Below are positions 36,602 through 59,734 of a DNA stretch of 64,000 nt, in pieces. Each line of letters opens with the position of its first letter. Position 1 is the stretch's first letter. Source of the stretch: Bacteroidia bacterium. GTDB lineage: Bacteria > Bacteroidota > Bacteroidia > Flavobacteriales > Schleiferiaceae. Under the pieces are notes generated by a model that made no database searches, was not told the origin of the DNA, and saw only the letters and a program-made list of their open reading frames with translations. Where the stretch lies: assembly GCA_030424545.1 (NCBI GenBank), contig JAUHWL010000007.1, positions 1 to 64,000 of the forward strand, read 5' to 3'. The position numbers and the translations under genes were made by a program.

Positions 36602-36640
36602 AAAAGGCTTTTCTTGGCTAATTAGGGCGCCTTTTTGGGG
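36602..36640 (+). terminator. Weak terminator candidate
   Basis: AAAAGGC and GCCTTTTT can pair around a loop of about 20 bases just after the Nramp-like stop codon. The stem is short for its loop. Confidence 0.35.
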
Positions 36641-36697
36641 TGTTGTTGCTTTTGGTTGACTGTTTTTCAATCTAATTTTGAGAAAAATTTTACGGCC

Positions 36698-39600
36698 ATG
36701 TTACAACATAAAATCAAAAATCTCTTTTTTCTCATCGCATTTATTGCTGCATCAATTCCCTCATTTTCATCGCACCTTTTAGGTGGCGAAATTGTGTGGG
36801 AGTGTATGCCTTCTGGACAATATAGGTTTACGTTAACCTTGTATAGAGATTGTACAGGAATACCTTTAAACAGCACAACCGAAACATTAGCAACCAATTC
36901 AGGTGCATCTATACCCTGTACAAAGATTTCGGTAAACTATATTAATAAAGAATGTGGTGCGTTGCCTTGTGGTTCTGTGCCTAACGGATACATTGGGGCT
37001 ATAGAGCAACATGTTTATCGCAGTGCACCAGTTACGTTAAATGGAACGCCACCCGTTGGCGGATGGTATTTTTCGTGGACAGACTGTTGCAGACCGGGTA
37101 CAGTAAGCAATTTATCATCACCTGGAGGCCAGTCTTACGTTTTACGGGCTCTTATGCATCCGTATACTCCAGGTGGATCTACAAACCCTCTGCCAGCTAA
37201 TCCATGTTATGATGATTCTCCAGATTTTCTAGAAGCACCAGATATTACAGTGTGTAGCGGATTTGATTCGGAATACTTAAGCTTAGGGTCTGATAAAAAT
37301 TTAGACTCTCTTTATTATGAATGGGCCGCTCCTAAAAATGGAGGAAGCTTTCCCAATTGGACAACAGTAAACTACTTAAACAGCACATATTCTCCTACCA
37401 GTCCATTGCCGGGGCCCGTGCACGATCCCAATAACGTTGCCGCAACCTTGAACGGAGAGCTGGGGCAAATAAAATTTAAGTCGTATACAACAGGTGGATT
37501 TACTACATGTATAAAAATTTCGGAATACCGTTGTAATCAACTAATTGGTGAGGTGTATAGAGACATCCCCATTTTTGTAAAACCATGTACACCACCTACG
37601 GGGCTTTGTGGAGGTACGCCCAATAATGCGCCAACTGTGAGTTTTGGGTATGATCCCGGCTTTCCACAGCTTACACCAATTTATGTAAATGGAGTTATTT
37701 CACACTACGAAATGACTGTTTATGCCAAAACGCATATCAAATTTAAAATGACGGGGCAGGATGTAGATTTACAACCCAATTGCGTTCCGCAGCAAATAGA
37801 GTTTAAAGGAAAAGGAGGAAACTTAAGTCCGTTTCCGTACAACAATACTAGCAATTGCTCATTCCAAGCACCATGCGCTACCATTACAAGTTTAAACTCA
37901 TCTGGCACTTTTGTTTCTTCTTTAAATAATGATGTTGAGTTTAATTGGCAAACTACGTGCGACCATTTGGATTATACGCCTACATCTTGCGGTGTATCTA
38001 AAAATACGTATGATTTTTACTTTAGGTTTGAAGACAATGCTTGCCCAATACCCGCTACAAGCTATGCAACGGTAAAAATTACAGTAGAAAATTATCCGCC
38101 AATTCCGCCAGATTTAACAGTGGCCTGTATGAGTTATGATGCCAACGGTGCATTGTCGTTTGATTTTATTCCGCCTACCGATACCGGAATTCAGTTTGAT
38201 TATTACGAAGTCTATCGATCTAATAATGGTGGGAATTACGCGCCTATCGCCACGATAGCGAATTATAGTGCCACCAGTTTTACAGATTTAGCTCCACCAA
38301 CAGGTGTAAATGCATATTATATGCGTACGTATGGAGGATGTTCTTTAATCAGCGAGCCGTCTGATACTATACAATCTATACAGATATCGTTAACCGCATC
38401 GCCACCACCGCCCAACAGTTCTGTTGCCATGCTTAGTTGGAATTATAGGAATCCCAATGGAAGTAAAGGAGAGATATATCAAATTTGGCGAGAAGTATGC
38501 GGCACAAACAATTGGTCTTTAATAGATAGCACCACATCTACCACCTATAATGACACTGTGAATTTATGTGGAGATTGTTTAAAGTATCAAATCCGAATTA
38601 AAAATGCTTGTCTATCAACGGTAGATAGCGCCTATTTATCAGACCAAAATAACAATGATGTCATTGCAATAGATACAGTTTCTGTTGTGGGAGGTTTAGC
38701 TACACTTAGTTTTGATACGACTACTGTATCTAATGATGTTATTAAATACATTGTATTAAAACAAGATGCAAACGGTTCTTGGGTGCCTATTGCAGATTTA
38801 CCCAGAGGTGTTGCAATGCCTTATACCTACATGGCATCTTTGGCAAATCAAGAATCAGAAAAATACAAAGTAGTAACTATGGATAGTTGCGGAAATCAGA
38901 GTAGCGATTTAAACGCAACAGCACACGGTACACTGTTTTTAAATGTAAACTCAGACCCGTGCGATGGTTTTGTAAGCCTGCGTTGGAATGCCTATGAAAC
39001 ATGGACAAAAACAGCCGTGTCTAAATATGAGGTTTTCGCAGATATTACGCAGTCAGATGGCACTTTTCAGAAAGGTGTATTGGTTTACCAAGGTGGGCCG
39101 GCCGATTTAAATTATAAACATACAAACGTGATAAGCGGCAGTCAATATTGCTATTATGTAAAAGTTACAGACACCACCGGTCTTTATACTTCTACTTCCA
39201 ACATAAAATGTATAGATGCCCTAGTAATACAAAAAAGCAGATTATTATATATGGCCCGTGCTACCGTAAAAAATGAAAACAGCGTAGAGGTTTATGGTTT
39301 TATTGATAAAGATGCTGATGTACAAGATTATGGTATTGAGCGAGCCGATAATATAAATGGACCTTATTTTGTTTTGGGTAGAATTCCAAAACCAACGGTG
39401 GCACCTTATGAGGTTAAGTATACAGACTATACAGCATCGCCATCTACAAACAAATATTTTTACCGCATTGTGTCTAGAGATAGCTGTGGAAGTGTAGATA
39501 CCATTTCTAATTTGGGACGTAATATCTATTTATCAGTTGTAGCTCAAGGGAACCTCACCAACAAATTGGCATGGAACCCGTATGAAGAGTGGGGGGGTAC

Positions 39601-40117
39601 CGTAGATAGATACGAGATTTATAGACAGATTAATGACAATGGTAACTGGAGTTTAGTAGATCAAGTATCTGGAACAGACACCACGTTTATAGATAACATT
39701 AGAACAATAGAAAATAGCAATGGATCTTTCTGTTATTACGTAAAAGCGTACGAAGCCAACAATCCCATTGGGTTTGTAGATGAATTTGGATTGCCATTTA
39801 GCTCAGTTTCTAACCAAGCTTGCGCAGTGCAAGAAGCAAGAGTGTTTGTGCCCACGGCATTTAATCCAAACAGTGATATTAGCGACAATAAAATCTGGAA
39901 ACCCAGTAATGTTTTTGCTGAAACCAACACGTATAAATTAATTGTAATGAATAGGTGGGGAGAGAAAGTATTTCAAACTACAGATTTAAACGCGGGTTGG
40001 GATGGTAGCTATAACGGAACACAACAAACAGGTGGAGTTTATACTTATTTTATCAATTACAAATCGTTAGATGGAGTTCTGATAGAAGAACGAGGCAATT
40101 TCACACTGATTAATTAA
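36698..40117 (+). CDS. Gliding-type giant surface protein with T9SS type B sorting domain (first tandem copy)
   Basis: I choose ATG 36698 (1139 residues). The longer frame from 36635 adds a Cys-rich leader with no signal character. A signal peptide ends at FSS, followed by SHLLGGEIVWEC, the conserved mature start of this Bacteroidota family. The body has many Cys and Asn/Gly-rich beta stretches and several fibronectin-III-like repeats (about 480-1050). The final 90 residues are a type B (CHU_C) T9SS domain with RVFVPTAFNPNS, MNRWGEKVFQT and GGVYTYFINY. It is probably an adhesin or motility-associated surface protein. A closely similar copy follows downstream. Confidence 0.87.
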   Translation: MLQHKIKNLFFLIAFIAASIPSFSSHLLGGEIVWECMPSGQYRFTLTLYRDCTGIPLNSTTETLATNSGASIPCTKISVNYINKECGALPCGSVPNGYIGAIEQHVYRSAPVTLNGTPPVGGWYFSWTDCCRPGTVSNLSSPGGQSYVLRALMHPYTPGGSTNPLPANPCYDDSPDFLEAPDITVCSGFDSEYLSLGSDKNLDSLYYEWAAPKNGGSFPNWTTVNYLNSTYSPTSPLPGPVHDPNNVAATLNGELGQIKFKSYTTGGFTTCIKISEYRCNQLIGEVYRDIPIFVKPCTPPTGLCGGTPNNAPTVSFGYDPGFPQLTPIYVNGVISHYEMTVYAKTHIKFKMTGQDVDLQPNCVPQQIEFKGKGGNLSPFPYNNTSNCSFQAPCATITSLNSSGTFVSSLNNDVEFNWQTTCDHLDYTPTSCGVSKNTYDFYFRFEDNACPIPATSYATVKITVENYPPIPPDLTVACMSYDANGALSFDFIPPTDTGIQFDYYEVYRSNNGGNYAPIATIANYSATSFTDLAPPTGVNAYYMRTYGGCSLISEPSDTIQSIQISLTASPPPPNSSVAMLSWNYRNPNGSKGEIYQIWREVCGTNNWSLIDSTTSTTYNDTVNLCGDCLKYQIRIKNACLSTVDSAYLSDQNNNDVIAIDTVSVVGGLATLSFDTTTVSNDVIKYIVLKQDANGSWVPIADLPRGVAMPYTYMASLANQESEKYKVVTMDSCGNQSSDLNATAHGTLFLNVNSDPCDGFVSLRWNAYETWTKTAVSKYEVFADITQSDGTFQKGVLVYQGGPADLNYKHTNVISGSQYCYYVKVTDTTGLYTSTSNIKCIDALVIQKSRLLYMARATVKNENSVEVYGFIDKDADVQDYGIERADNINGPYFVLGRIPKPTVAPYEVKYTDYTASPSTNKYFYRIVSRDSCGSVDTISNLGRNIYLSVVAQGNLTNKLAWNPYEEWGGTVDRYEIYRQINDNGNWSLVDQVSGTDTTFIDNIRTIENSNGSFCYYVKAYEANNPIGFVDEFGLPFSSVSNQACAVQEARVFVPTAFNPNSDISDNKIWKPSNVFAETNTYKLIVMNRWGEKVFQTTDLNAGWDGSYNGTQQTGGVYTYFINYKSLDGVLIEERGNFTLIN

Positions 40118-40138
40118 ACAAGCCATTTGGTTAATGAT

Positions 40139-40167
40139 TAAAGGGAGGCAATTTGCTTCCCTTTTTA
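40139..40167 (+). terminator. Terminator between the tandem copies
   Basis: AAAGGGAG/CTTCCCTTT stem around a GCAATTTG loop followed by Ts, just after the first copy. Confidence 0.7.
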
Positions 40168-40336
40168 AGATATATATTTAGCTACAAGTGCCAATTGATT
40201 AGAATTTTTCCTTACAATTATATTCTTAGCTAACGTAGCACAATCGAAAACTAATTATGGGATGCATAATGGTGCGAATAGTAGTTTCAATTGGTCATTT
40301 CACCTTATCTTCGAGCCAAATTAAAAATCTGCCAAA

Positions 40337-43300
40337 ATGCATTTAAAGCGAAAAATCTTTGGGATCCTCATTTTCACACTTCTGTTAAGCAGCCAGTCGT
40401 TTGCCTCTCACTTGTTGGGTGGTGAAATTATTTGGGAATGCTTGCCAAGTGGTCAATATAGGTTTACGTTAACTCTGTATAGAGATTGTACGGGAGCTAC
40501 TCTCGGTACAGGAGGACAAACCTTAATTTCTAATTCTCCTGCTGGAAATATTCCATGCGCCAAAATTGCAACAAATTATATCAATAAAGAATGTGGCGCC
40601 TTGCCATGTGCTAGTTTACCAAACGGTTATATAGGTGGTATAGAGCAACATGTTTATCGCAGTGCACCCGTTACCTTAACAGGTACACCGCCAGCTGCAG
40701 GGTGGAGTTTTGCTTGGAATTTATGCTGTCGTCCTGGTACAGTTACAAATTTATCTGCACCAAGCGGTCAGGCATATACGTTAAGAGCCTTTATGTATCC
40801 TTTTACTCCTCCAGGATCAACCTCACCACTTCCTGCAAACCCATGTTATGATGCATCGCCAGACTTTTTAGAAGCACCAGATGTTACAGTTTGTACGGGG
40901 TTTGATGCAGAATATTTAAGCCTTGGTTTTGATAGTGATTTGGATTCATTGTATTATGATTGGGCTCAACCACTAAGAGCTGGAACATCACCTCTAACAT
41001 TTACACCTGTAAATTGGCAAACACCTTATGCATTTAATAATCCACTGCCAACAACAGTTCAAAACTCACAAAACGTTCCAGCAACGTTAAATAACAGTAT
41101 AGGTCAAATCTCTTTTAAATCATTTACACAAGGTAGTTTTGCTACTTGTGTGAGTATCAAAGAGTATCGTTACGGACAGTTAATTGGAGAGGTTTTTCGG
41201 GATATTCCAATTTTTGTTAAACCATGTCCTCCACCAACAGGATTGTGTGGTGGAAATGCAAACAATGCTCCGTCTTTTAGTTTTGGATGGTATCCAGGGT
41301 TTGATACATTGACACCTGTTTATGTAAACGGTAAACTGTCATATTATGAAATGACGGTATTCGCAAAAACACAGGTTAAATTTAAACTTACATCACAAGA
41401 TGTAGATTTACAACCTAACTGTGTTCCTCAAGAAATAGCATTTATTGGCCAAGGTGGTAATTTAAGTCCATTGCCAAACTATAATAACGCTAACAATTGT
41501 TTTTTCCAGGCACCATGTGCCACGATTAACTCGTTAAACTCTGGCGGTGGATTTATTTCTTCGCTAAATAATGATGTTGAGTTTAATTGGCAAACCACGT
41601 GTGATCACTTAACATATACTAGTACGTTAGGAGGGACGGCTAAAAACACCTACGAGTTTTATTTTAGGTTTGAAGATAATGCGTGTCCGTTGCCAGCAAC
41701 AAGTTATGCCACGGTAAAAATTAATGTATTAAACTATCCGCCAACACCTCCAGATTTATCTACAGCTTGCCTTGGGTATTTGCCTAATGGAGATGTGCAG
41801 TTAAATTGGATACCACCTGCGGATACAGGAATTCAGTTTGATTATTACAAAATATTTAGATCTAATAATGGTGGTAATTATATGGCTATTGATAGTGTGT
41901 ATGATTACTCTATGACAACGTATACTGACGTTAACCCGCCTGCAGGATCAAATGCGTATTACATGCGCACACATGGTGGTTGTGTATTGGTTAGTGAACC
42001 ATCAGATACCTTAATGCCAATTGATTTAACATTGGTAGCTACGCCACCTCCGCCAAACAGCTCTATAGCTAATTTATCTTGGAATGCGCGAAGTGTAAAA
42101 GGTACTCAAGGTGAATCATATGAAGTATGGAGACGGGTTTGTGGAACGCCCACTTGGGAATTGGTTTCTACCACATTAGGCTTAAGTTATGTAGATACCG
42201 TAAATGTATGCGGGGCATGTTTAGAATATGAGGTTCGCGTTGATGGTATTTGTGCCAGTACGCGTGATAGTGCTTATCTATCTGATCAAAGCAATACTGA
42301 TATTCGCATTATGGATAGCGTATCTGTTGTAGGAGGTATAGCAAACATTAGTTGGGATACAACAGGAACTGCTTCTGATGTAACAGATTACTTAATTCTT
42401 AAGAAGGATGCCAATGGATCATGGATTCAAATAGCACAAGTGCCAAGAATTACCTCAATGCCTTATGTATATACAGGTTCTTCTGCAAATACAGAATCAG
42501 AAAGCTTCAAAGTAGTTTCGATTGATAGTTGTGGAAATCAGAGCAGTGATTTAAATGCAACGAAACAGAGCACCATTTTTATGTCCATTAATTCAGATCC
42601 TTGTGATGCTTTTGTAAGGATAAGATGGAATACATACAAAACATGGCCGCAATCTGCCGTTTCTAAATATGAGGTTTTTGCCGATATAACCCCTCCAGGT
42701 GGGCCTACGCAAAATAGAGTGTTGATTTATCAAGGAACTGTAACAGACTCTGTATTTAACCATACCAGCGTACAAAGTGGTTATGAATATTGCTACTACA
42801 TTAAAGTAACAGATACAACTGGATTATATACTTCTACATCCAATAGAAAGTGTGTAACATCTTTGGTTGTTCAAAAAAGTAGATTGTTATACACGGCAAG
42901 AACCACAGTAAAATCAGATGAAAGCATTGAAGTTTGGACATTCATTGATAAAGATGCAGATGTAATTGATTACGGAATTGAGCGTGCAGAAAACCGCACA
43001 GGACCTTATGTTGTTTTGGGTAGAATACCAAAACCAGTGCAAGGCCCTTGGGAAGTAAAATACAGTGATTACGGTGCTAGCTCAAGTTCAAAAAGATATT
43101 TCTATCGTGTAGTTTCTCAAGATAGTTGCGGAGCTGTAGATACGATATCGAACATAGGAAGAAACATTTTATTGGATGTTTATGCCAACGGAAACCTTAC
43201 CAATACTTTGGTTTGGAACCCATACGAAGAATGGGCAGGAAAAGTGGGTAGATATGAAGTTTACCGTCAGGTAGATGATAATGGTGCTTGGACTTTGGTT

Positions 43301-43777
43301 ACAGATGCACTAACTGCAGACGACACCACTTTTGTAGACAATGTGCGTATGTTTAGCGATAGCAAAGGAGCATTCTGTTATTACGTACAAGCTGTAGAAG
43401 ATGCAAACCCTCTAGGATTTGTTGATGAATTCGGAAACCCAATTAGCTCTAGATCTAACAACGCTTGTGTAACGCACAATGCAAGAGTATTCGTTCCATC
43501 AGCATTTAACCCAGATAGCGAAACATTAGAAAATAGAGTGTGGAAACCAACCAATGTGTTTGCACGTTCAAATAGCTATCAGATGTATGTTATGAACCGT
43601 TGGGGAGAAAAAGTATTCCAAACAACAAACGTAGACGAAGGTTGGGATGGTACCTATAAAGGAGAACCACAGCCGCTTGGTGTATATACTTATTATATTA
43701 ATTATAGATCTTTAGAAGGATTGCCAATAGAAGAAAGAGGTAACTTTACCCTTTATAGAAACGGAGCTTCTAACTAG
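40337..43777 (+). CDS. Gliding-type giant surface protein with T9SS type B sorting domain (second tandem copy)
   Basis: This 1146-residue protein aligns with the first copy from end to end: signal peptide ending SFA, SHLLGGEIIWEC, the segments GYIGGIEQHVYRSAPV and CDHLTYTS, the Fn3-like region and the type B C-terminus (RVFVPSAFNPDS, MNRWGEKVFQT, GVYTYYINY). Differences are spread evenly in protein and codons, so this is an old tandem duplication and not an assembly artefact. A terminator lies between the copies, so each may be separately expressed. The copies may serve as alternative surface variants. Confidence 0.87.
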   Translation: MHLKRKIFGILIFTLLLSSQSFASHLLGGEIIWECLPSGQYRFTLTLYRDCTGATLGTGGQTLISNSPAGNIPCAKIATNYINKECGALPCASLPNGYIGGIEQHVYRSAPVTLTGTPPAAGWSFAWNLCCRPGTVTNLSAPSGQAYTLRAFMYPFTPPGSTSPLPANPCYDASPDFLEAPDVTVCTGFDAEYLSLGFDSDLDSLYYDWAQPLRAGTSPLTFTPVNWQTPYAFNNPLPTTVQNSQNVPATLNNSIGQISFKSFTQGSFATCVSIKEYRYGQLIGEVFRDIPIFVKPCPPPTGLCGGNANNAPSFSFGWYPGFDTLTPVYVNGKLSYYEMTVFAKTQVKFKLTSQDVDLQPNCVPQEIAFIGQGGNLSPLPNYNNANNCFFQAPCATINSLNSGGGFISSLNNDVEFNWQTTCDHLTYTSTLGGTAKNTYEFYFRFEDNACPLPATSYATVKINVLNYPPTPPDLSTACLGYLPNGDVQLNWIPPADTGIQFDYYKIFRSNNGGNYMAIDSVYDYSMTTYTDVNPPAGSNAYYMRTHGGCVLVSEPSDTLMPIDLTLVATPPPPNSSIANLSWNARSVKGTQGESYEVWRRVCGTPTWELVSTTLGLSYVDTVNVCGACLEYEVRVDGICASTRDSAYLSDQSNTDIRIMDSVSVVGGIANISWDTTGTASDVTDYLILKKDANGSWIQIAQVPRITSMPYVYTGSSANTESESFKVVSIDSCGNQSSDLNATKQSTIFMSINSDPCDAFVRIRWNTYKTWPQSAVSKYEVFADITPPGGPTQNRVLIYQGTVTDSVFNHTSVQSGYEYCYYIKVTDTTGLYTSTSNRKCVTSLVVQKSRLLYTARTTVKSDESIEVWTFIDKDADVIDYGIERAENRTGPYVVLGRIPKPVQGPWEVKYSDYGASSSSKRYFYRVVSQDSCGAVDTISNIGRNILLDVYANGNLTNTLVWNPYEEWAGKVGRYEVYRQVDDNGAWTLVTDALTADDTTFVDNVRMFSDSKGAFCYYVQAVEDANPLGFVDEFGNPISSRSNNACVTHNARVFVPSAFNPDSETLENRVWKPTNVFARSNSYQMYVMNRWGEKVFQTTNVDEGWDGTYKGEPQPLGVYTYYINYRSLEGLPIEERGNFTLYRNGASN

Positions 43778-51239: not shown

Positions 51240-51331
51240 GGCTAACGGCTAAATAAAATTTCGAGCGGGAGACGAAGACGAAGTCGAGTCCACCGTGACG
51301 AAATTTAGGGTTAAAAACGGTGACGTTGGGA
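51240..51331 (+). repeat. attC-like imperfect palindrome
   Basis: The ends can pair as CTAACG (51242-51247) with CGTTGG (51324-51329), and inside them AATTTCG pairs with CGAAATT. The outer boxes resemble, but do not fully match, the RYYYAAC and GTTRRRY boxes of integron cassette attC sites. It lies just upstream of the hypothetical gene (which points away from it) and near the group II intron. A mere hairpin is an alternative. Confidence 0.35.
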
Positions 51332-51363
51332 ACTGCCAAAGCCCCGTTTGAATTTTATTTTTT

Positions 51364-52047
51364 GTGTGTGCCTTGAATGGTAAATATAATTTTCTTTTAG
51401 AAGAAAATCCCAAAGGGTGCAAGTCCCTGATACGCTGGGGTCGTGCCCAGAAGCAAAGCAAGTCGCAAGGTTGCTAGCTGTGAAGCTAGGATTGAAGTAA
51501 GCGAGTGCTGGCGCATCGGTACAGCATCGTGCCGAACTACAAACGCCTGAACTGACGAACAGGAACGGAATATGTGGCATGGTTGCTTGGGTAAGTAAGC
51601 ACATCATTGCAAAGCCCTAAGAGTACAAAAGGGCAGCTATGTAGATTCCGCAGGATTAGACAGAAGGGTATTTATCTTACCGAGAGGGCAGAGCGTTAAG
51701 AAAATGCACGGTGTGCATTTTTAGCGAATGAGCCAGTTTGCGCGGTGGCCAGTAGCCACGAGTTGGCAGAGCGGAGAAGTCAGCAGAAGTAATAGTACCA
51801 ACAGGAAACGAGCTGCGAAAAACGCAGAGGACTCACGAAATTGGGAAGGACTGAACGTTGAGTGGCTTGAAATCCGATAAGGAAGCTATCGCAAGATTCT
51901 AGCCTTATCTCAAATTAGAGCCAAGGCATAGTTGGTGTAAAGAGCGGCTATGTTATGCTTAACGAACCGCTGTATACGAGAACCGTAAGTACAGTGGTGT
52001 GAGAGGCGCACTCCGTTCCTATTTAGGGACGGAGCCGTCTACTCGAT
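51364..52047 (+). mobile_element. Group II intron lacking its reverse-transcriptase ORF
   Basis: The 5' end is near GTGTG at 51364-51370 and is followed by the domain I motif GGGTGCAAGTCCC. The characteristic segment leading into the usual ORF (AGCAGAAGTAATAGTACCAA) is present near 51783. Domain V is at about 51965-51998 (ACCGCTGTA/TACAGTGGT helix with a CGTAAG-type tip). Domain VI (stem CTCCGTTCC/GGGACGGAG) ends CTACTCGATT at about 52048. No RT/maturase frame of useful length is present, so the intron is a deleted, presumably trans-dependent copy. It lies on the plus strand, immediately downstream of the stop codon of the minus-strand DUF6090 gene. Exact ends are uncertain by a few bases. 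Confidence 0.82.
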
Positions 52048-57885: not shown

Positions 57886-58707
57886 ATGTCTTCAAATTTA
57901 CTAGCCGGAAAAAAAGGAATCATTTTTGGCGCCTTAAATAAAGAATCAATTGCTTGGAAAGTTGCAGAATCTGCACATGCACATGGTGCAACCTTTACCT
58001 TAACCAATGCACCCATAGCTATGCGTATGGGAGAAATTAATGAGTTAGCAGCAGCCACCGGCTCTGAAGTTATTCCTGCCGATGCCACAAGCCTAGAAGA
58101 TTTGGAAAACCTATTTACCAAAAGCCAAGAAATTCTTGGTGGTAAATTAGATTTTGTTTTACACAGCATTGGCATGAGTGTAAACGTGCGCAAAGGCAAA
58201 CACTATACAGATTTAAATTATGATTGGTTAGAAAAAGGCTGGGATGTTAGCGCAGTTTCTTTTCACAAAGTAATTCAAACGGCTTATAAGCAAGATGCCA
58301 TGAACGAGTGGGGGAGCATTCTTGCACTAACCTATATGGCGGCACAACGCACATTCCCAGATTATAATGATATGGCCGATAATAAAGCATACTTAGAAAG
58401 TATTGCCCGCAGTTTTGGCTACCATTACGGAGTAAAACGCAAAGTGCGCATAAACACAATTAGCCAAAGCCCAACCATGACAACGGCAGGTAGCGGTGTA
58501 AAAGGCTTTGATGGCTTTATAAGCTATGCCGAAAAAATGAGCCCGTTGGGCAATGCCACTGCGCAAGAATGTGCAGATTATTGCATCATGATGTTTAGTG
58601 ATCTTACCAAAAAAGTTACTATGCAAAACCTATTTCACGATGGCGGATTTAGCAATGTAGGCGTAAGCAATTTGGTGATGGACCAGTTTATGGGCAATAA
58701 AGAATAA
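57886..58707 (+). CDS. fabI: Enoyl-ACP reductase (NADH), FabI type
   Basis: This 273-residue SDR enzyme performs the last reduction of fatty-acid elongation. It shows GIIFGALNKESIAW (cofactor loop), Tyr150 and the catalytic Tyr160-x6-Lys167 (PDYNDMADNK) spacing that distinguishes FabI from ordinary SDRs, then SQSPTMTTAGSG. Its presence suggests the FabK-like protein at 34408 is not the main enoyl reductase. A terminator follows. Confidence 0.95.
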   Translation: MSSNLLAGKKGIIFGALNKESIAWKVAESAHAHGATFTLTNAPIAMRMGEINELAAATGSEVIPADATSLEDLENLFTKSQEILGGKLDFVLHSIGMSVNVRKGKHYTDLNYDWLEKGWDVSAVSFHKVIQTAYKQDAMNEWGSILALTYMAAQRTFPDYNDMADNKAYLESIARSFGYHYGVKRKVRINTISQSPTMTTAGSGVKGFDGFISYAEKMSPLGNATAQECADYCIMMFSDLTKKVTMQNLFHDGGFSNVGVSNLVMDQFMGNKE

Positions 58708-58728
58708 TTTATTGGAATTTACTTCTGC

Positions 58729-58760
58729 AAAAAAGCCACGTTTTACGTGGCTTTTTTGTT
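58729..58760 (+). terminator. Intrinsic terminator after fabI
   Basis: AAAAGCCACG/CGTGGCTTTT stem with TTTTA loop region and T-run. Confidence 0.9.
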
Positions 58761-58849: not shown

Positions 58850-59734
58850 ATGACTATGAAATCATCATGTAAACAGAATCACACTTCGGAGCGCCCCCCT
58901 CTCCTATGTGGAGAGGGGCTGGGGGTGAGGTTGTTTACAGCATTTGCCCTAGTTGCCCTACTTAGCGCAAGCTCTTGCAAACGCGATTGTGATGACCGAT
59001 CAAACCCCGATTGCGAAAATTATGACCCCTGCTACGGTAAAACACAACCAAGCGCCAAGTTTATAATGGAGGAGTCTAATCCACAGTTGGCCAATAATGG
59101 CATTTGGTATGCTGATAGTGTTTTTAAAGGTTACATGTTGCGTTTTCGATCTGAATTTACGGATAAGCAATATACACATACATGGTACGTTGGTGCAGAA
59201 ACTTTTACGTCAGCTACCACACCCGACCGTAATTTCGGACAAGAAGCACGGCCACAATACATAACGATTAGTCATGTGTTAGAATATACGCCAGATTTAC
59301 AATGTTTCTCAGATGATAACGGCAAAGACAGTGTTGCACAAACGTTTCGGTTGATAGCTTCTTATAATGAAGAATTACAAACCTATGGTACTTTTAGAGG
59401 TGCTCTGGATGGAGCTACAGATACTTTTGAAGTTAAAATAATTTCAGTAGATAAAAATAACCAACCTGCTGGGTTTAATACCCACGAGCAAGACTGGTAT
59501 ATAAACTTTCACAATAGAGGAGATACACTAACCAGCAATGGCGATTTTCATTCACCCTTGCGCCTTAATGGCTACTATTACAATCGTCAAGGTTTTTTTA
59601 TAGATCAACTGGAAGGCACAATTGTAGTAGATGCCAAAGGCCGTTTTGAAATGCATTACAGAAACGAAGGTGCAAAACTAGAATTATTAGGCGACCGCTT
59701 GTGGCATACTTTTAAAGGCAGAAAAATAGATTAA
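58850..59734 (+). CDS. Lipoprotein of unknown function with a palindromic repeat in its 5' end
   Basis: Starting at ATG 58850 the protein has 294 residues. An in-frame GTG at 58925 would give a shorter, cleaner lipoprotein signal. The lipobox Cys follows LVALLSASSC, and an acidic, Cys-rich linker (KRDCDDRSNPDCENYDPC) follows. The rest is a beta-rich extracytoplasmic domain. I recognise no family. Residues about 15-27 (RPPLLCGEGLGVR) come from a GC-rich palindromic repeat that is typical of intergenic DNA. The gene stands alone between two terminators. Confidence 0.7.
   Translation: MTMKSSCKQNHTSERPPLLCGEGLGVRLFTAFALVALLSASSCKRDCDDRSNPDCENYDPCYGKTQPSAKFIMEESNPQLANNGIWYADSVFKGYMLRFRSEFTDKQYTHTWYVGAETFTSATTPDRNFGQEARPQYITISHVLEYTPDLQCFSDDNGKDSVAQTFRLIASYNEELQTYGTFRGALDGATDTFEVKIISVDKNNQPAGFNTHEQDWYINFHNRGDTLTSNGDFHSPLRLNGYYYNRQGFFIDQLEGTIVVDAKGRFEMHYRNEGAKLELLGDRLWHTFKGRKID
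58894..58930. repeat. GC-rich palindromic repeat inside the lipoprotein reading frame
   Basis: CCCCTCTCC (58896-58904) and GGAGAGGGG (58910-58918) form a perfect nine-base stem with a five-base loop, followed by CTGGGGGTGAGG. This hairpin-plus-tail is a dispersed repeat type I know from Bacteroidota genomes, usually between genes. Here it is in the coding frame upstream of the signal peptide core. Confidence 0.7.

Follow-up and report, generated by a model that had tools for sequence, protein, structure and literature searches.

The lipoprotein gene and its surroundings

The window, that is, the whole stretch of 64,000 nucleotides that was analysed, carries on its forward strand an open reading frame for a putative lipoprotein, whose translation begins MTMKSSCKQNHTSERPPLLCGEGLGVRLFTAFALVALLSASSCKRDC... 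(Table 1). The hallmarks of a lipoprotein, namely a signal peptide with a hydrophobic core and a Cys, were judged by eye to be present. No Pfam family was found for the protein at E <= 1, and no viral relative was confirmed, as the three pattern matches obtained were all without a tblastn hit. In the predicted structure, a poor model with a mean pLDDT of 59.5, residues 1-25 fall below a pLDDT of 50 and are followed by a helix at residues 25-41. The upstream neighbour of the gene is of the enoyl-ACP-reductase type (57886-58707; Pfam adh_short_C2). After it, at 58728-58758, lies a perfect 14-bp inverted repeat with a T run, which is probably its terminator.

Some other features of the window deserve mention. 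A group II intron-like RNA is present at 51474-52047, with RF02001 at 51474-51675 (96.1 bits) and RF00029 at 51965-52047 (38.1 bits, just below the cut-off of 40). No reverse transcriptase ORF for this RNA was found between the flanking genes. The segment just before it, 51250-51365, has several diverged copies in the genome (82-93% identity over 57-116 nt) and may be another repeat family. Two adjacent, long and similar secreted-type proteins of 1160 and 1146 aa are encoded at 36635-43777, probably through tandem duplication.

Table 1. Features of the lipoprotein gene and of the repeat at its 5' end
Feature	Position	Strand	Basis
ORF of putative lipoprotein, 294 aa from the first ATG	58850-59734	+	ORF list, Pfam search
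ATG, proposed start (ATG 58850 is an alternative just upstream)	58856-58858	+	A at -3, -6, -12 and -13; MK start like several homologues
Possible longer palindrome with outer arms TGTAAACA ... TGTTTACA, probably chance	58868-58939	+	Inverted-repeat search, DNA fold, flank test
Left hairpin arm CCCCTCTCC of the triplex-type repeat	58896-58904	+	Inverted-repeat search, triplex-site scan
Right hairpin arm GGAGAGGGG	58910-58918	+	Inverted-repeat search, triplex-site scan
Third block GGGGGTGAGG, possible third triplex strand	58921-58930	+	Triplex-site scan; TM layout after PMC4666352, Table 1
In-frame GTG inside the repeat, rival start	58925-58927	+	Read from sequence
In-frame TTG right after the repeat, rival start	58931-58933	+	Read from sequence
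Signal core LFTAFALVALLSASSC; the putative lipobox Cys is ORF residue 43	58931-58978	+	Translation; predicted helix 25-41; lipobox by eye

A triplex-type repeat read in frame

The reading frame is uninterrupted between 58850 and the stop codon and runs through a core of 35 nt at 58896-58930. This core reads CCCCTCTCC-TATGT-GGAGAGGGG-CT-GGGGGTGAGG; a GC-rich hairpin, with perfect 9-bp pairing of its arms around a 5-nt loop, is followed by a G-rich third block. When translated in frame, the repeat adds RPPLLCGEGLGVR before the hydrophobic core LFTAFALVALLSASSC. The sequence-only reading had described a GC-rich hairpin repeat read in frame at the 5' end of the gene, with an in-frame GTG within it, and both are indeed found here. 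The repeat matches a known type, the G/C-rich intrastrand triplex motif (TM or TM_ECO, earlier PIT) of Holder et al. 2015 (PMC4666352), and the formation of a triplex is predicted for it.

The repeat stands out from chance expectation. At <=3 mismatches, its right half (21 nt) has a single match in the window and is absent from all 100 shuffles. The single-stranded DNA fold of the 72 nt at 58868-58939 reaches -18.1 kcal/mol (z -4.26), with 0 of 200 shuffles as good, while the RNA fold of 141 nt around the repeat has a z of -3.46, with 1 of 200 shuffles as good. Triplex sites were scanned for by a rule following PMC4666352, as given there: a pyrimidine arm, a purine arm and a third strand, with stems of 6-15 nt, loops of 1-6 nt and <=1 mismatch. 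As found by our own script, the window repeat satisfies this rule. No other class II triplex site with stems of 9 nt (<=1 mismatch) is present in the 64 kb, and this one occurs in two overlapping registers; such sites in 30 first-order Markov sequences numbered 0.2 on average and 4 at most.

It was also considered whether the outer inverted repeat TGTAAACA/TGTTTACA belongs to the element. Of the 180 copies for which 40 nt of flank were available (those closer to the end of a locus being dropped), 8 had outer matches of >=8, as against 2.5% of 2000 mismatched pairs. The outer repeat is not general to the copies and was rejected as a part of the element, being probably due to chance.

Homologues of the lipoprotein

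The homologue of the lipoprotein is patchy in its distribution and is present in 9 of the 88 genomes of the family, the source genome included. Comparison of orthologues had been suggested by the sequence-only reading, a leader carried by all of them being what would speak against an insertion. The leader motif was looked for in 12 homologues from the 8 other family genomes, and 0/12 carry it; they have ordinary short signal peptides. The aligned homologues match on both sides of the extra residues, with MKxS... before them and the hydrophobic core after them. The simplest reading would therefore be that the window gene gained the leader by insertion, and not that the others lost it. The nearest homologue is only 47% identical, so that there is no exact empty site from which the limits of the insertion could be fixed; the family search brought up no second genome from its genus. 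The residues invariant across a seven-sequence alignment are retained in the lipoprotein of the window.

Copies in the genome, the family and beyond

Further copies were sought with the relaxed pattern GGAGAGGGN{1,7}GGGGTGAGG, the reversed pattern serving as the control. The relaxed pattern was found at 7 places in the source genome, which is a low copy number, and at 16 places in 8 of the 88 family genomes; the reversed one had 0 matches across these 88. That the element is a repeat, as claimed earlier, is thus borne out. A stricter pattern finds the window copy only, and a search at <=3 mismatches finds 4 places; as the number of places depends on the stringency of the pattern, the copies must vary.

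Of the 15 other places in the family, seven lie inside large ORFs (L014, L045, L052, L046, L047, L048 and L050), three adjoin a free-standing gene for a DUF559 protein (L013, L049 and L053), and four are between or near ORFs (L054, L055, L056 and L057). The remaining one, L051, is without the left arm, and its location class is left unassigned. The hosts of the in-gene copies, as named by eye, are restriction-modification and helicase genes. Comparison with solved structures gives L047 a helicase match that spans the repeat, which falls there in a variable loop, so the insertion is unproven; the match of L050 to HsdR covers only the part downstream of the repeat, and the host of L014 has no solved-structure match. 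On another contig of the source genome (L015, 1496-1577, contig C12), an ORF of 341 aa also has a partial triplex-type repeat, read in frame, at its C-terminal end (...EGEPPLLRGAGGV).

In-frame reading of the repeat is therefore not peculiar to the window copy, and the TM-type repeat is not purely intergenic in this bacterial family. The earlier statement that such repeats usually lie between genes agrees with Escherichia coli MG1655, for which 23 copies are described, always intergenic and unassociated with mobile elements (PMC4666352), but it does not hold for this family, with its seven places inside large ORFs. A scan of named genomes yielded at least 117 stretches with the triplex layout, from many phyla (by record title), including Bacteroidota, Chloroflexota, Cyanobacteria and Proteobacteria.

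Association with DUF559

A DUF559 profile was built from the five DUF559 domains matched in the source genome. One copy of the repeat in this genome borders such a domain (contig C11), and none of the five matches falls in the window or on its contig, C6. The profile matches the solved structures 3hrl (1.1e-30) and 3r3p, labelled 'Mobile intron protein' (6.4e-7), the latter of which we take to be the homing endonuclease I-Bth0305I; with a single DUF559 sequence, the match to 3r3p is only 0.045.

Among the named repeat loci, 6 of at least 117 contain a DUF559 segment, and all 6 lie within 187 nt of the centre of the repeat; none of 20000 random placements was as close as these 6 pairs. No DUF559 was detected within the stretch examined in the other 111 of the at least 117 loci. 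The control in E. coli, with its 23 TM copies, was negative for DUF559.

The association was also followed from the side of the nuclease, DUF559 being present in 222 of 395 genomes of the phylum. Thirty DUF559 loci, which are 29 from the best-scoring phylum matches together with one from the source genome (L037) and thus not a random sample, were set against 30 loci of Y1_Tnp. The repeat or the hairpin alone occurs within 300 bp on at least one side in 13/30 of these best-scoring DUF559 loci and in 0/30 of the Y1_Tnp loci (Fisher two-sided, 4.6e-5). It is present on both sides in 7/30 DUF559 loci, 4/30 having the third-strand part on both sides, and in none of the Y1_Tnp loci. No such repeat is nearby (300 bp) in 17/30 of the best-scoring DUF559 loci. 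A triplex repeat brackets the DUF559 segment in L077, L144, L155, L097 and L045.

DUF559 segments inside host genes

Several of these segments do not stand as separate genes, and in 15 of the 29 best-scoring phylum loci DUF559 is part of an ORF exceeding 300 aa. Three hosts from other searches were checked against solved structures, the others being named by eye. In the leucyl-tRNA synthetase of a member of the Cytophagales (L077), the break in the alignment at query 316/484 corresponds to 235/242 of the Thermus enzyme; a second, unrelated break is seen at query 168/229. In PriA (L144), the break is at 114/360, or 123/235 of the solved structure. The third host is the methionine synthase of the source genome (L038, contig C14), in which a DUF559 segment is read in frame at 1328-1924 and the break at 440/643 corresponds to 763/769 of the solved enzyme.

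Instead of the triplex repeat, the methionine synthase gene has direct repeats of 102 nt, which are 92% alike and 495 nt apart. As both numbers are multiples of 3, recombination between the two would leave one of them in frame. The ORF has 1119 aa here, as against 880-927 aa in 13 of the 19 other family genomes with a match. The remaining 6 of the 19 comprise three of 1227-1239 aa (probably the unsplit gene), two shorter ones and one of 1056. With a minimum length of 16, outer repeats at DUF559 insertions were absent at L179 and amounted to one 16-nt pair at L186.

Interpretation of the leader

The explanation favoured here, to which a probability of about 0.58 is given, is that a solo TM repeat entered the n-region of the signal peptide without breaking the frame and persists as a near-neutral passenger. 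Translation would still begin at the original ATG (58856, or 58850), the ribosome would read through the G/C-rich copy, and the n-region would become longer by about 15-20 residues. Signal peptidase II removes the signal peptides of lipoproteins, and it would discard the lengthened n-region along with the rest. The mature lipoprotein, from Cys43 onwards, would then be unaltered and the insertion tolerated. The low confidence of residues 1-25, followed by the helix, fits a discarded leader, though the model is poor; and since in-frame copies occur elsewhere in the family, the repeat appears to be tolerated in coding sequence. The open frame through the repeat, taken alone, is weak evidence for translation of the leader.

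What has to be weighed against it above all is that the repeat may lie in the 5' untranslated region or may itself supply the start, GTG 58925 (or TTG 58931) initiating and the upstream ATGs remaining unused. We regard this as rather unlikely, yet it is the alternative to be taken most seriously. The 12 homologues have 14-28 residues before the lipobox Cys (starts chosen by eye); the 17 from the GTG and the 15 from the TTG fit this range, while the 40 from ATG 58856 lie outside it and count against the ATG. In the source genome, two other copies stop a few bases short of a likely ATG, one in front of a DUF559 gene (L013) and one in front of an aldehyde-dehydrogenase-like gene named by eye (L054), and a published survey considers many N-terminal REPs to be probably untranslated (PMC3733652). 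The sequence context argues the other way. Ribosome profiling of Flavobacterium johnsoniae describes A at -3, -6, -12 and -13 as favourable (PMC6847099); ATG 58856 has 4/4 of these, ATG 58850 2/4, and GTG 58925 and TTG 58931 1/4 each. The genome analysed here is probably one of the Flavobacteriales, to judge from kinship labels. The 25 nt upstream are 80% A+T for ATG 58856 and 36% for GTG 58925, which sits just past a strong hairpin, with an in-frame, MK-starting ATG in good context upstream of it. Shine-Dalgarno sequences are reported not to be recognised by ribosomes of the Bacteroidia (PMC9976891), and the GGAG that precedes the GTG would accordingly be of no use to it. As ATG 58856 keeps all four adenines and begins MK like several homologues, the gene would need no new start, and the earlier suggestion that the repeat was exapted as a leader or start region does not find support; exaptation could be entertained as a possibility only. 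For the start codon, length favours GTG or TTG and context favours ATG, with translation from the upstream ATG (58856, or 58850) seeming fairly probable.

The hairpin may instead have been exapted as a regulator that tunes the translation or the mRNA stability of the lipoprotein gene. The stable predicted RNA fold around it and its position within the first 80 nt of the gene would agree with this, but it lies about 40 nt downstream of ATG 58856, beyond the -20 to +20 region described as relevant in F. johnsoniae (PMC6847099). TM motifs were without promoter or terminator activity in an earlier study, as reported by PMC4666352, and copies of the repeat occur in unrelated genes, all of which makes such a role improbable. 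It is very improbable that the gene is decaying or unexpressed, with the repeat in a degenerating 5' end: the homologue is patchy in the family, as such decay would have it, but the frame of 294 aa is intact and the invariant residues are kept.

A possible origin of the repeats

A wider proposal is put forward tentatively, as a conjecture that may well be wrong. TM-type repeats may, at least in part, be the borders of mobile DUF559 (EDxHD-type) cassettes, which would insert in frame with neither an intron nor an intein. The leader in the window and other solo in-frame repeats would then be either scars of cassettes that have lost the nuclease or non-autonomous relatives mobilised in trans. As a mover of the repeat, DUF559 cannot be the sole one, because many repeat loci are without DUF559 nearby and the E. 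coli control was negative. A DUF559 protein has also been treated as a Vsr-like repair nuclease (PMC12907096), a role that would need no mobility. Triplex repeats as borders of DUF559 were not found described in the titles and abstract openings on Bacteroidetes palindromes, DUF559, in-frame endonuclease insertions and EDxHD, a body of literature in which subscription journals are largely absent.

Taken alone, the window copy would be a known repeat that was inserted in frame, and is tolerated, in a region of the protein that is probably removed. Of more weight is that triplex repeats, so far described as intergenic and without a mobile partner, are found here in genes and bordering DUF559 segments, some of which lie within genes normally considered indispensable, e.g., that of leucyl-tRNA synthetase. 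If the cassettes are mobile, triplex repeats would have a mobile partner, for which the E. coli study had found no candidate. Proteins could then acquire nuclease domains and short palindromic peptides without splicing, and the question of how such repeats spread would have a testable answer.

Comparison with known systems

The EDxHD homing endonucleases, including I-Bth0305I, serve as one system of comparison (PMC6083498). The likeness lies in the match of the DUF559 profile to 3r3p and in a paper that places a DUF559 gene within the EDxHD homing family (PMC9403480). The cassettes here differ in being in frame within host ORFs, with repeats as borders and with no self-splicing part recognised by eye, and the repeat copy of the window is without a nuclease.

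Repetitive extragenic palindromes of the REP type, with their RAYT partners, offer another comparison. The window core (58896-58930) has no GTAG or CGTC tag. RAYT (Y1_Tnp) was considered as the mover and has three matches in the genome, but the repeat or hairpin is near 0/3 of these and, within 300 bp, near 0/30 of the phylum loci; RAYT is thus rejected as the main partner of the repeat on the sample seen. Intragenic REPs and the Rickettsia palindromic elements (RPE; Ogata 2002, as cited there) are described by Di Nocera et al. 2013 as in-frame palindromes in protein genes, some of them N-terminal (PMC3733652). The window repeat and the in-gene family copies likewise lie in frame in protein genes, a likeness at the level of description.

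The closest likeness is to the TM. The E. coli copies are intergenic and are described as not linked to mobile elements (PMC4666352), whereas the window copy is in frame inside an ORF and related copies here border DUF559 segments. In structure, the two agree: the window repeat has 9-nt stems and short loops, and it shares with the TM the three blocks, in the same order and with near-identical letters, e.g., CCCTCTCCCTGTGGGAGAGGGCCGGGGTGAGGGC in E. coli (PMC4666352, Table 1).
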